Source of the DNA: Acidobacteriota bacterium | GTDB taxonomy: Bacteria > Acidobacteriota > Terriglobia > Acidiferrales > UBA7541 | DNA: 64,000 bases | Reading direction: 5' to 3' | Assembly: GCA_003166795.1 (NCBI GenBank) | Contig: PMUS01000097.1 | Span: forward strand, 5,287-69,286 | In this document: positions 1 to 44,941 of the stretch, piece after piece | Numbering within the stretch: the first letter of the stretch is position 1 | Layout: each line of letters starts with the position of its first letter | Notes under the pieces: generated by a model | Seen by the model: only the letters and a program-made list of their open reading frames with translations | The model's database searches: none | What the model was told of the DNA's origin: nothing | Translations under genes and position numbers: made by a program

Positions 1-1158
1 CCCGACAACGCCGAGCGCTTCGCCGAGTTCTCGCGCGTGGCGATTGAGTTCATGAAGCGCGTGTGGCTGCCGGACGTGATTCATTGCCACGACTGGCAGT
101 CGGCGCTGGTGCCGCTGCTGCTGCGGACGCAGCACCAGGCCGATCCCGTGGTGCGGTCACTGCCGGTGATCCTCACGATTCACAATCTGGGCTATCAGGG
201 ATTGTTTCCGCAAACGGCGATGAAGAGTATCGGCCTGCCCGATACTTTGTTCACCATGGACGCGCTCGAATTCTATGGCAAGGTGAACTTCCTGAAGGGC
301 GGCCTGATCTTCGCGGATTACCTGACCACCGTGAGCCGGCGATACGCGAAGGAAATTCAGACGCCGGAATACGGATGGGGGCTCGAGGGAGTGATCCGCA
401 ACCGCGGCGACCGGCTGGTCGGCATCCTGAATGGCGTGGACTACGGAGTGTGGAGCCCCGAAGTGGACACGCTGATCGCACAGAACTATTCGGCGCAAAA
501 TCTCGAGGGCAAGAAGGCCTGCAAGAAGGACCTTCTCGCGTGGTTCCGGCTGCCGGAGGAAAATCTGGACGTGCCGCTGATCGGCATCGTCTCGCGATTC
601 GCGGATCAGAAAGGCTTCGATCTGATCGCGCAGATTGCCGGAGAGCTGATGCAGGAGAATCTCGCCATTGTCGCGCTGGGCACCGGCCAGCCGGAATATG
701 AGAAGCTGTTCAAAGGGCTTGCGGACAAATATTCGGGTCGCGTGAGCGTGAAAATCGGGTACGATAACACGCTCGCCCACAAGATCGAGGCGGGTGCGGA
801 CATGTTCCTGATGCCGAGCCGCTACGAGCCGTGTGGGTTGAACCAGATTTACAGCCTGCGGTACGGCACCGTTCCGGTGGTTCGCGCAACCGGCGGCCTG
901 GACGATACGATTCAGAATTTCGGGCCGAAGGCGCAGCAGGGAACAGGTTTCAAGTTCGACGAGTACGACGGGGAAGCGCTGCTCGGATGCATTCGCGCGG
1001 CGCTGAAGGCGTACCGGGAACCGAAGGTGTGGCACGCCATACAGGCGAACGGCATGGCCAAGGATTTTTCGTGGAAAGCCTCGGCAGCCGCGTATGTCAC
1101 GCTGTATGAAGCCGCTAAAAGGGCTCGAATCCCGCGGGTTGCTGGATCATCTAAATAG
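1..1158 (+). CDS. glgA: glycogen synthase (GT5), 5'-truncated by window edge
   Basis: This is the C-terminal 385 residues of an ADP-glucose-dependent glycogen synthase, which extends alpha-1,4-glucan chains in the cytoplasm. The reading frame is open from base 1, beginning PDNAERFAEFSR, so the true start lies upstream. Visible family motifs are VIHCHDWQS and TIHNLGYQG in the N-terminal GT-B lobe, and EPCGLNQIYSLRYGTVPVV around visible residue 276, which holds the catalytic Glu region and the nucleotide-sugar binding segment. GGLDDT follows directly. The end of the family is intact (stop TAG at 1156-1158). trxA follows 50 bases downstream and may or may not share its transcript. The only other glycogen gene seen is the GAF-phosphorylase at 40.3-43.0 kb, so glycogen genes are not clustered here. 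Confidence 0.95.
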   Translation, partial: PDNAERFAEFSRVAIEFMKRVWLPDVIHCHDWQSALVPLLLRTQHQADPVVRSLPVILTIHNLGYQGLFPQTAMKSIGLPDTLFTMDALEFYGKVNFLKGGLIFADYLTTVSRRYAKEIQTPEYGWGLEGVIRNRGDRLVGILNGVDYGVWSPEVDTLIAQNYSAQNLEGKKACKKDLLAWFRLPEENLDVPLIGIVSRFADQKGFDLIAQIAGELMQENLAIVALGTGQPEYEKLFKGLADKYSGRVSVKIGYDNTLAHKIEAGADMFLMPSRYEPCGLNQIYSLRYGTVPVVRATGGLDDTIQNFGPKAQQGTGFKFDEYDGEALLGCIRAALKAYREPKVWHAIQANGMAKDFSWKASAAAYVTLYEAAKRARIPRVAGSSK

Positions 1159-40325: not shown

Positions 40326-43037
40326 TTAAAGCGTCGTGCTCATGTCGCTCGACGTGCCGCCCGCCGCGGGAACGTAGCATTTCCGGGTGTAGTCCATCAC
40401 CATACGATCGGCATTGAATCGCCAGCCGAGCGTTCGGATGGTTCGCTTCATGCGCTTGATCCAGCCGCGCGGCAGTCCGTCGCGATCGCGGTTATAGTAG
40501 AGGGGAATTACCTCTTCGAGCAGCGTGCGGTATAGGTCTTCGCCGTCTCGCGCGTCGTGAACGTCCATGTGGGAATGCGTCCTACCGGTGCCGATCGCGA
40601 AACCGTTCAGGCCGTCGTACGCTTCCGCCCACCAGCCGTCGAGCACGGAAAGATTCAGTCCGCCGTTCAACACCACTTTCTGGCCGCTCGTACCCGAAGC
40701 CTCCAGCGGCCGCCGCGGATTATTCAACCACACGTCAACGCCCTGGACGAAATGGCGTCCGACGTTGATGTCGTAGTCTTCAACGAAGACGAACTTGTCG
40801 GCGAACTGGGGATTGCGCATCATCTGCGCGATTTCCTGCAGCATGCGCTTGCCGGGATCGTCCCGCGGATGCGACTTGCCGGCGAACACGAACTGCACCG
40901 GCCGCTTCGGATCGTTCACCAGCGAAGCCAGTCTTTCGATATCCCTCAGGATCAGGTCGGCGCGCTTGTACGTTGCGAAGCGGCGCGCAAATCCTATTGT
41001 AAGAGCATCCGGACTGAAGACGTTTGCGAGTCTCTGCAGAACTTCCGGCGCTTCGTTGCGGCGCTCGGCCTGTTTCACCGCGCGACGGCGCACGAACTCC
41101 AGCAGGCGCGATTTCAGGCTGAGATGCGTCTCCCAAAGCTCGCCGTCGTCCACATTTTCGATGCCTTCCCAGATGCGCGCCTCGCTGCTCTGTTCGTGCC
41201 ATCCGGTTCCCAGGTGGCGGTCGTAGAGGCGAAACATTTGTGGCGCGAGCCACGTGGGGACATGAACGCCGTTCGTGATGTGTCCTATGGGCACGGCGTC
41301 TTCCGTTTTGCCGGGGTAAAGGCCCACCCACATCGCCCGGGACACCTCGCCGTGGAGCGCGGAAACGGCGTTGGCGCGCCGCGCGATTTTCAGGCCCAGC
41401 ACGGTCATGCAGAATTCTTCGTCGTTGTTGGCCGGGTTTTCGCGTCCAAGCGCCATCAGCTGGTTGTGAGAGAGCCCCAGAAATTCTCCCAGAGGTCCCA
41501 GATGTTCTTCGATCAGGTCCGCGCCGAACCGGTCGTGTCCCGCCGGCACCGGCGTGTGGGTGGTAAAAACGACTTCGCGCGAAACGCGATGAACGGCCTG
41601 GTCGAATCCCAGGCCTTCCTCCTGCATACGATTGCGAATAGCTTCGAGTACCGCAAATCCGCTGTGTCCCTCATTAAGGTGAAGAACGCCTGGTGTAATG
41701 CCCATCGCTTTCAGCGCGCGGAATCCTCCCACACCGAGCAGCAGCTCCTGACGGATTCGAATGCGCGCGTCTCCGCCATAGAGACGCGAGGTGAGCTCCA
41801 CGTCTTGCGGGGCGTTTCCTTCGACGTTGGAATCAAGAAGAAGCAGATCACACCGGCCCACTTTCATTCGCCAGACTTTCGCGCGTATCAGTCCGCTTCG
41901 CGTCTCGATTTGTACCGTCACGGCTTCGCCATTGGTTCCGATCGCCAGCTCCATGGGAAGGTGGGTCACATCCGTCTGCAAATATTCTTCCTGCTGCCAG
42001 CCGCTCGGATCGAGCGATTGCCGGAAATAGCCCTGGCCGTAAAACAATCCCACGCCGACCAGCGGGATGCCCAGGTCAGACGCGCTCTTGATGTGATCGC
42101 CGGCGAGGACGCCCAGACCGCCGGAATATTCGGGAATCGATTCGTGCAATCCGAATTCGGCTGAGAAATACGCCACCGGGCGAGGCCGCAGCACACCGGC
42201 GTGCCTTGTGCCCCAGGTGCGATCTGCTTCGAGGTATTCGAGCTTGCGCCGGTACGCGTAATTGATTCGGCTGTGCAGCACCAGCTCGCCGGCTCGGCGC
42301 TCGATCTCGGCGAACGGAATTTCGCTCAGCATGGAAACGGGATTGTGATTGAGCTCCCTCCATCGCACGGGATCGAGGTCGCGGAACAGACTGGTCGAAT
42401 CGTGGTCCCACGACCACCACACATTGTGGGCCAGCGACCAGAGCCTTTCCTGTGCCGGAGCGATGAAGCGGTCGAGAGTGCGGGCCTCGCTGACGACCGG
42501 CGCCACTTCGGCGGCGGCTTTCGCCAGCATCTGAATCTCGTCCTCGCGAAAAACGCGCGCCTCGGTGGTTTGGACGACTAGGACGCCCTGCAGAACGCCT
42601 CGGTCAATCAGCGGAACGCCGACAAACGACTGGTATGCATCTTCACCGGCCTCGTGAAAGTACTTGAACCGCGGATGGTCCTTCGCCCGCTCCACGGCAA
42701 CAGGCCGCACCTGCTCTGCGACCAGGCCCGCCAAACCTTCATGGATTCCCATACGAAGGGAGCCGATACATTGGCGGCGAAGCCCTACCGTGGCCGCCAG
42801 GACCAGGTTCGCTCGATCGGGCTCGATCAAATAGACCGAACACACATCGGTTTCAAACCGCTTGGCAATCAGCGCGACCACGTTCATCAGCGTCTCGGCC
42901 GGCTTGCCGCCCTGTTTGGCGAGGTTTCCAATCTCTTCCAGAGTCAGAACGTAGCTCGCGTCCCGCGCTTCCGTGCCTTGGCTCACGCTCTGCATTCCCC
43001 TGTCATCCGGTTTCCGTCGGACGCCCGATTGTCCCAT
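40326..43037 (-). CDS. glgP: alpha-glucan phosphorylase with N-terminal GAF domain
   Basis: A 903-residue protein. Residues about 30-180 form a GAF domain closely like that of PtsP (EI-Ntr): LTLEEIGNLA, RFETDVCSVYLIEPD, GIHEGLAGLVAEQVRPV, SFVGVPLIDRGVLQGVLVVQT. From about 185 it is a GT35 phosphorylase of the short bacterial type: WSLAHNVWWSWDHD, YFSAEFGLHESIPEYSGGLG, HLNEGHSGF, FTTHTPVPAGHDRF, and EASGTSGQKVVLNGG with the PLP lysine near 785. It should release glucose-1-phosphate from glycogen, with small-molecule control by the GAF domain (inference). The start ATG 43037 follows GAGGTAG. Confidence 0.92.
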   Translation of the reverse strand: MGQSGVRRKPDDRGMQSVSQGTEARDASYVLTLEEIGNLAKQGGKPAETLMNVVALIAKRFETDVCSVYLIEPDRANLVLAATVGLRRQCIGSLRMGIHEGLAGLVAEQVRPVAVERAKDHPRFKYFHEAGEDAYQSFVGVPLIDRGVLQGVLVVQTTEARVFREDEIQMLAKAAAEVAPVVSEARTLDRFIAPAQERLWSLAHNVWWSWDHDSTSLFRDLDPVRWRELNHNPVSMLSEIPFAEIERRAGELVLHSRINYAYRRKLEYLEADRTWGTRHAGVLRPRPVAYFSAEFGLHESIPEYSGGLGVLAGDHIKSASDLGIPLVGVGLFYGQGYFRQSLDPSGWQQEEYLQTDVTHLPMELAIGTNGEAVTVQIETRSGLIRAKVWRMKVGRCDLLLLDSNVEGNAPQDVELTSRLYGGDARIRIRQELLLGVGGFRALKAMGITPGVLHLNEGHSGFAVLEAIRNRMQEEGLGFDQAVHRVSREVVFTTHTPVPAGHDRFGADLIEEHLGPLGEFLGLSHNQLMALGRENPANNDEEFCMTVLGLKIARRANAVSALHGEVSRAMWVGLYPGKTEDAVPIGHITNGVHVPTWLAPQMFRLYDRHLGTGWHEQSSEARIWEGIENVDDGELWETHLSLKSRLLEFVRRRAVKQAERRNEAPEVLQRLANVFSPDALTIGFARRFATYKRADLILRDIERLASLVNDPKRPVQFVFAGKSHPRDDPGKRMLQEIAQMMRNPQFADKFVFVEDYDINVGRHFVQGVDVWLNNPRRPLEASGTSGQKVVLNGGLNLSVLDGWWAEAYDGLNGFAIGTGRTHSHMDVHDARDGEDLYRTLLEEVIPLYYNRDRDGLPRGWIKRMKRTIRTLGWRFNADRMVMDYTRKCYVPAAGGTSSDMSTTL

Positions 43038-43326
43038 CGCGTCTACCTCTATTTTCTCATGCCTTCAACGCTGTCCGCGGTCGCGGCGGAACTCCCGTTG
43101 CGGAGATGCAACCCTGTTGACGCCGACGTCACGTCCCCAACTCCCGGCGCGATGAGATACCCTCCAAACCCCGTGCACCCGCCAAACTCTATTAGCCGGG
43201 CGCACGCTAAGTCCAATCCAAATTGCTGATTGTGGACATCACTCCCCGTGGATAGCGTTCGCGGACGAGTTGCCGCTTGGCGAGTTGAACTCCAGAATTT
43301 GAAGACAAACTTCGAGAGGCTGCGTG

Positions 43327-44796
43327 TTAATGCGAGGGGGTTGCGAGATGAAACGTAAGGTCCACTTCTCTCTGGAATTGGACAGGCTTCCCATCGAGGA
43401 GTGTCGGGGTGTAGCGCCATTGGCGAACGGCTCTTTCGGCGGCGTCCAACAGCAATCGCGGCCCGCCCAGGACAGCAATTGCGCGAACAGCACCATCTGG
43501 GCCGATCGAGACGTTGAGCCTGACCGTTCCTTCCTGACGCTGGTCTCTGGCGATTGTCGGATACTCGGGATCTATGCGACGAATCAACTGGCCCTGCTTC
43601 ACGATTCCGGCCGGCTGCGATGGTTCGGGCACGCGCAGGGACGGCGCTCCCGCCAAAGCGTGAGAGTTAATCGCTCCGGAGGTCGTGAGGGCCCCATCAG
43701 TGCCAGCGGCAGGAACGTCCGGCAGGACCGGCGGGTTCTCCTTTGCGACCCCTCCGTCAGTGGCCGCTGGTCGTGATTGTTGCGGGGGCGCAAGGACCCA
43801 TGTCTGAAAGTTCGTCTGCGGTTTCCGCGCGTGCGTTGCACCATTTTCGGAGACTTGCTGATGGGTGGCGTCCGCGGGACCGTTCATCGGGCCGTCGAAG
43901 GGAATCGTCCAATGTTGGTCGCTCGCGCTTACGACTTCAATCTCCGTGGGCCGCGCGGCCGGGATCGCAGGGCTCGGCGTTGGTTCACGAGTGTCCTCGC
44001 CGTTCTGCGATGCCATGGCAAGAAACTCTCGAAGGCGCTTTCCGACCTCTCCGTGTCCGGTGGACCACCCCGCCGCGAGGGAAGCAACTGCCAGAAGCAA
44101 CAGGACTGCTGCGGCAGCCAGGCGATTCGCGAACAGTTTTTCGGCGCCGGCAGGGTGCTCGTCGGCCGACTGGCCGCTGAGATTGGGGTTGTATTCACGC
44201 GAGCGACCCAGGATTCGCGCGAAAGCGTCCGGCGCCGGATACGAAAACACCCCCGGGGTTGGCGCGGCGCGCGGCGGCGTCCCAAATTCCGCATTGGCAG
44301 CTGCAACCTGGCCGCGATCTTCCGAAGGGAAAGCTGGTTCCCCAGCTGTGCCATTCGAAACCGTGCTCTTGTGGGTGTCGGGCGGCGTGACTGACGGCTC
44401 ATTTTCTTTCGGAGTCGAGGTGGCGCCTTCCTCGGGTGCCGCTCTGGGCAATAGCGCCTCACGGATCAACCATTCCTTGATCTGGAGGCGGGCATCATCG
44501 GGGAGATCGACAAATTCCAGCCCTGCCAATTTTCTGGACTCGCTCGTCCAGCTGACTCGCGCGTTCGCGTGGATCCAGCCCTCTGACTCTGACAGCTGAA
44601 AGCGCACCTCGGGCAGGACGTCGTCTATGACGCTCGTATAAGCCTGCACGGAAAGGCCGCCCTCGCTGATGTTTAGGACTATCCCGCCATTGCCTTCATC
44701 GAGTTCCACATACGCAAGCGACCGGAACGGTTGCCGGTAGTAAAGGCGACGATCGGCAGGCCGGTAGTTCTGGGCCCGCGCGAGCGGGTTGGACAT
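43327..44796 (-). CDS. PilZ - transmembrane - TonB C-terminal fusion protein
   Basis: A 489-residue protein with an N-terminal cytoplasmic PilZ domain (about 12-110; RRLYYRQPFRS and LNISEGGL with N42, S44, G47 as NxSxxG), a Pro/Ser/Thr-rich linker, one helix (NRLAAAAVLLLLAVASLAAGW, about 228-248), a second long Pro-rich periplasmic linker, and a TonB C-terminal domain (VKQGQLIRRIDPEYPTIARD, EGTVRLNVSIGPDGAVR, AVRQWRYTPTLLDGKPV). It could transmit a c-di-GMP signal to an outer-membrane partner. No ExbB/ExbD or TonB-dependent receptor is adjacent. ATG 44796 is chosen as the first Met before the PilZ fold. Confidence 0.85.
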   Translation of the reverse strand: MSNPLARAQNYRPADRRLYYRQPFRSLAYVELDEGNGGIVLNISEGGLSVQAYTSVIDDVLPEVRFQLSESEGWIHANARVSWTSESRKLAGLEFVDLPDDARLQIKEWLIREALLPRAAPEEGATSTPKENEPSVTPPDTHKSTVSNGTAGEPAFPSEDRGQVAAANAEFGTPPRAAPTPGVFSYPAPDAFARILGRSREYNPNLSGQSADEHPAGAEKLFANRLAAAAVLLLLAVASLAAGWSTGHGEVGKRLREFLAMASQNGEDTREPTPSPAIPAARPTEIEVVSASDQHWTIPFDGPMNGPADATHQQVSENGATHARKPQTNFQTWVLAPPQQSRPAATDGGVAKENPPVLPDVPAAGTDGALTTSGAINSHALAGAPSLRVPEPSQPAGIVKQGQLIRRIDPEYPTIARDQRQEGTVRLNVSIGPDGAVRAIAVLGGPRLLLDAAERAVRQWRYTPTLLDGKPVQFQREVDLTFHLATPSH

Positions 44797-44941
44797 GGTT
44801 GACTTAATTTCCTTCAGTTGCGGGCCTGGGTCCCGCCGCAATTCTTTGGTGCCCGAGATTGTATGCCGGCCGATCGGTCAGTTCAAGCCGGCCACAACGG
44901 GTAAATACGCGACCGAGCCGGACCGCTTCGCTCAGAGCTGG

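Follow-up and report, generated by a model that had tools for sequence, protein, structure and literature searches.

Glycogen phosphorolysis is known to be regulated in E. coli, where GlgP responds to HPr and the signal is PTS-linked, and in muscle, where glycogen phosphorylase responds to AMP and to phosphorylation. A different sensor is found in the nitrogen PTS. In proteobacteria, the GAF domain of PtsP (EI-Ntr) is needed to bind glutamine, which inhibits PtsP, and 2-oxoglutarate, which stimulates it (review PMC13104625), and a GAF mutation in EI-Ntr of Caulobacter abolishes the inhibition by glutamine (PMC4848567). How glycogen breakdown is linked to nutrient status is poorly known in bacteria outside the well-studied groups. 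No description of a GAF domain fused to a glycogen or glucan phosphorylase was found in the literature searched, and GAF is never mentioned in the available portion of a 2024 review of prokaryotic alpha-glucan enzymes, although automatic listings of such architectures probably exist in domain databases. Here we describe such a fusion in the window, meaning the whole acidobacterial DNA stretch of 64,000 nucleotides that was analyzed.

Gene structure and domain layout

The first-pass annotation of the window had proposed a GAF domain fused to a glucan phosphorylase, and this was borne out. The reading frame is complete, starts with ATG and is open over exactly the span 40326-43037 (minus strand), the domain profiles match, and the architecture recurs in at least 55 loci of Acidobacteriota and Planctomycetota, a comparison set that includes the window's own locus and a few duplicates. 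The features discussed below are as follows.

40326-43037, minus strand: whole gene, GAF-DUF3417-alpha-glucan phosphorylase, 903 aa (ORF, Pfam, NCBIfam)
43046-43050, minus strand: AGAGG, Shine-Dalgarno-like, 8 nt 5' of the ATG (read from the sequence)
42498-42899, minus strand: PtsP-type GAF domain, residues 47-180 (Pfam, PRK11061, PDB sequences, fold, tree)
42429-42545, minus strand: C-terminal helix of the GAF and junction into DUF3417, residues 165-203, of constant length in all fused proteins (model helices, alignment)
42135-42449, minus strand: DUF3417, the N-terminal part of TIGR02094-type phosphorylases, residues 197-301 (Pfam)
40368-42176, minus strand: alpha-glucan phosphorylase catalytic domain (GT35, TIGR02094), residues 288-890 (NCBIfam, identity to 9l6i/20yr)
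40677-40679, minus strand: PLP-binding lysine K787 in EASGTSGQK (alignment with solved phosphorylases)
37-1158, plus strand: glgA (glycogen synthase), 5' end truncated by the window edge, on the same contig as the fused gene but not adjacent to it

In the 903-aa protein, Pfam detected GAF (PF01590, E=1e-14, residues 47-179), DUF3417 (E=3e-26, residues 197-301) and Phosphorylase (PF00343, E=5e-27). The GAF domain had been assigned to the first 180 residues; the domain is present, but this span is slightly too wide, as the GAF begins at about residue 45; before it, disorder is predicted for residues 1-27 and conservation is lacking over the first ~29. An artefact of assembly joining or frameshift was ruled out by the identical architecture in dozens of assemblies from two phyla.

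The catalytic part matched the alpha-glucan family phosphorylase model TIGR02094 over all of its positions (1-600 of 600; E=4e-250, 831.7 bits against a cut-off of 191.7; NCBIfam), while the cut-off of the classical glycogen phosphorylase model TIGR02093 was missed (91.6 against 552.9 bits). The closest solved structures were those of the Segatella copri glycogen phosphorylase, 9l6i and 20yr, with 36-37% identity. K787 in EASGTSGQK aligned with the lysine in EASGTSNMK of solved phosphorylases and was invariant across 41 relatives, and the catalytic motifs were conserved. Judged from its sequence, the catalytic signature is intact and the enzyme part looks active; it would convert glycogen to glucose-1-phosphate. 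The presence of glgA indicates that the organism can make glycogen. Because no second GT35 phosphorylase was found in the window's genome (PF00343 search; genome 93% complete), the fused gene appears to be the organism's sole route of glycogen phosphorolysis.

Relationship of the GAF domain to PtsP

The PtsP profile PRK11061 matched the protein at residues 47-203 only (E=2e-32; NCBIfam). The match covered model positions 19-175 of 748 and ended there, and the enzyme I domains with the phospho-histidine that come after the GAF are absent. In sequence and profile searches of the PDB with the GAF, the crystal structures of PtsP GAFs (3trc and 3ci6) and the Geobacter GAF 3e0y were far ahead of the rest. 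When the GAF was modelled by itself (mean pLDDT 83), the best fold matches were again the PtsP GAFs 3trc and 3ci6, with TM scores of 0.83-0.91. Six residues (S67, G85, L86, H121, G140 and L153) were common to the fused and PtsP GAFs but seldom occurred in the remaining GAFs of the class, and the fused GAFs displayed invariant residues of their own, E72, R75, K125 and Q150.

Phylogenetic analysis of 78 GAFs placed the 28 fused sequences in one clade (support 100/99), a long, separate and divergent branch within a moderately supported group of PtsP and fused GAFs. The best trees joined the fused GAFs to PtsP with moderate support (85/59 and 89/78). In the tree without long branches, the starred branches nested the fused clade inside the PtsP GAFs, which thereby became paraphyletic. 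A tree that instead joined the fused clade to ordinary GAFs of Acidobacteriota scored 13.8 log units lower, yet the AU test did not reject it (p=0.24). A NifA-type GAF was also considered and dropped, the matches being weak (32.8 bits) and the NifA sequences lying far from the fused clade.

By profile, by sequence match to solved structures, by predicted fold and by tree, the GAF of the fused enzyme is of the PtsP (EI-Ntr) type. The resemblance to EI-Ntr noticed in the first-pass annotation therefore held, and the phylogeny agreed with it at the moderate support given above. Derivation of the domain from PtsP is only probable, because the AU test keeps the rival grouping and the root of the tree rests on NifA. 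Within the Acidobacteriota sample, the fused phosphorylases were the sole carriers of a PtsP GAF at E<=1e-24, and the enzyme I proteins lacked this domain. A PtsP-like protein was seen in a planctomycete (L176), with an open frame of 1133 residues and ~370 residues N-terminal to its GAF.

Distribution and conservation of the fusion

Among the matches listed from one scan of genome contigs, fused genes were present in many Terriglobia, one Vicinamibacteria MAG and several Planctomycetota. Two cultured acidobacteria, Paracidobacterium acidisoli and Occallatibacter savannae, have the fused gene. Even surveys covered one acidobacterial class, the Terriglobia, to which the window belongs, and one planctomycete class. 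The full fusion was detected in 42 of 250 genomes of the former, where about three more carried pieces, and in 14 of 249 genomes of the latter, 12 of which also held a GAF-less paralogue, so that its occurrence extends across two phyla. Many Terriglobia carried GAF-less phosphorylases instead, and control by the GAF would thus be dispensable at the class level. At one locus (L199, G230:C6) the GAF-phosphorylase was split over two reading frames, indicating a pseudogene or an assembly error. Another fused gene, of planctomycete/acidobacterial type, was found in a record titled as a Bifidobacterium breve MAG (CALQBJ020000207.1), whose organism label is probably wrong.

In the phylogenetic tree of the phosphorylases, a single change sufficed to account for the GAF-bearing group, on a branch that was weakly supported; the nearest relatives were GAF-less planctomycete enzymes (60-65% identity). 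Alignment of 55 fused proteins from the two phyla revealed no insertion or deletion across residues 58-240; thus the GAF core, the junction and the start of DUF3417 hold a constant register. Over 72 pairs, the GAF had a median dN/dS of 0.11 and the catalytic part one of 0.13, rough values with many dS near saturation. These sequence comparisons suggest that the fusion is old, conserved and of one origin, not a chance join, and that purifying selection acts alike on the GAF and on the catalytic part.

The enzyme I N-domain (PF05524) was not found in the window's genome, nor in 37 of the 42 Terriglobia genomes with the fusion. It was present in the five genomes reached via planctomycete-type loci and in one acidobacterium outside Terriglobia. 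Some surveyed genomes are incomplete, and among the 31 that are at least 90% complete it was detected in four. A PTS phosphorelay is thus probably missing from most Terriglobia that carry the fusion, and any control by the GAF in those carriers would bypass the PTS.

Gene neighbourhood

No conserved neighbour was found across the fused loci of Terriglobia, and a conserved glycogen operon around the fused gene was not seen. A gene for PEP carboxylase (PF00311) was located within ~2 kb of the fusion in six of nine planctomycete loci. Two of 26 Terriglobia loci also had one nearby, at 84 bp and at 3.6 kb, and none occurred near GAF-less phosphorylases at 27 loci with flanks of up to 5 kb. The fusion-linked PEP carboxylases belonged to several distant lineages (~32-39% mutual identity) and displayed differing orientations. 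Such repeated pairing of glycogen phosphorolysis with an anaplerotic enzyme would agree with a function in feeding carbon into the TCA cycle, from which 2-oxoglutarate comes.

In the window, gltB (glutamate synthase) is located 3.8 kb downstream of the fused gene. This vicinity was dropped as evidence for a nitrogen signal, as only the window's genus and, in a different arrangement, one further locus (L039) have the gene close by. The window also encodes, at 43327-44841 (minus strand), a 504-aa ORF with an unusual pairing of an N-terminal PilZ (residues 30-125) and a C-terminal TonB_C domain (residues 425-499); an ORF of 42% identity was found at the same position in a relative (L048/L234).

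Possible function of the fused enzyme

The first-pass annotation had also suggested that a small ligand directly controls glycogen breakdown, and as a whole it is supported in part. Allosteric gating of the phosphorylase by a small molecule at the GAF is likely. The ligand may be a carbon/nitrogen metabolite, with glutamine and/or 2-oxoglutarate as the first candidates, although we would put this slightly below an even chance. In the mechanism that we propose, the GAF, descended from or sister to that of PtsP, would bind a small metabolite reporting carbon/nitrogen status, and its long C-terminal helix would relay this state via the constant-length junction to DUF3417 and on to the catalytic oligomer. 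The AlphaFold model places the last GAF helix at residues 165-187 and, after a short break, the first DUF3417 helix at residues 194-203, a plausible path for the signal. Glutamine would activate and 2-oxoglutarate inhibit phosphorolysis, so that glycogen would be burned when nitrogen is plentiful and carbon is short; this sense of regulation comes from physiology only and is less likely than the class of ligand itself.

The association with PEP carboxylase ties the fusion to carbon entry into the TCA cycle and favours a carbon/nitrogen ligand. The divergence of the fused GAFs and their own invariant residues indicate that the ligand may differ from that of PtsP. A GAF scaffold taken from PtsP may have been re-tuned to a cyclic nucleotide, an adenylate, or a glycolytic or other intermediate. 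The next fold match after the PtsP GAFs and 3e0y is the cAMP-bound Lcd1 GAF 5w10, and glycogen phosphorylases elsewhere respond to AMP (PMC11046441). However, the residues typical of PtsP are kept, every measure ranks PtsP GAFs first among the matches, and the PEP carboxylase neighbourhood suggests central-carbon status; we regard such a ligand as possible but rather unlikely.

Since dimerisation is common among GAF domains and phosphorylases form oligomers, the GAF might serve a structural purpose, fixing the oligomer state or the localisation of the enzyme, and have no physiological small-molecule ligand. The constant length of the junction would agree with such a role, as would the fact that close relatives work without a GAF. 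The invariant glycines, the EGLxG motif and the GVP/GVLVVQ strands of the fused GAFs, however, are those of a typical ligand-binding GAF, which makes a purely structural role improbable. The GAF could also serve as a docking site for a PTS protein, in the manner of HPr on the glycogen phosphorylase of E. coli; regulation of that enzyme by HPr is described in PMC11046441, and a structure of the GlgP-HPr complex exists in the PDB (9s8k). Docking of this kind is nevertheless very improbable given the distribution of PF05524, and action via a PTS partner was rejected for most carriers, which lack this domain.

We thus tentatively favour an alpha-glucan phosphorylase with a GAF that would sense a carbon/nitrogen metabolite and gate glycogen breakdown, a reading that may well be right but for which we stop short of even confidence. 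Its most specific form, a one-protein switch in which a glutamine/2-oxoglutarate-sensing GAF from the nitrogen PTS directly controls glycogen breakdown and persists in lineages without enzyme I, is doubtful. As sensor and enzyme lie in one polypeptide, the question can be reduced to a single in-vitro assay, and the planctomycete isoenzymes that naturally have no GAF could serve as controls. Should the ligand prove to be glutamine or 2-oxoglutarate, carbon storage in common soil bacteria with no enzyme I would be under a signal of the nitrogen-PTS type that involves no phosphotransfer.

Comparison with known systems

The fused enzyme shares with PtsP (enzyme I-Ntr; PRK11061, 3trc, 3ci6) the GAF subfamily, the signature residues and the position of the GAF N-terminal to the catalytic part. 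It differs in having no PEP-utilising, phospho-histidine or PEP-binding domains, in its output, which is a phosphorylase, and in occurring without enzyme I. With other TIGR02094 enzymes, such as S. copri GlgP (9l6i/20yr) and planctomycete GlgP, it shares DUF3417, the catalytic domain and the PLP lysine, whereas those enzymes start at or near DUF3417 and have no GAF. In the E. coli and muscle enzymes the regulator is a separate protein or consists of sites within a TIGR02093-type enzyme, while here it is a GAF covalently joined to a TIGR02094-type enzyme. Each of the parts is known, the combination is undescribed in the literature searched, and we see the protein as a known enzyme in a new, putatively regulated form. 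What appears to be new is that the only GT35 phosphorylase found in a genome bears a GAF, and that a PtsP-type GAF would work without the PTS in most carriers of the same class.
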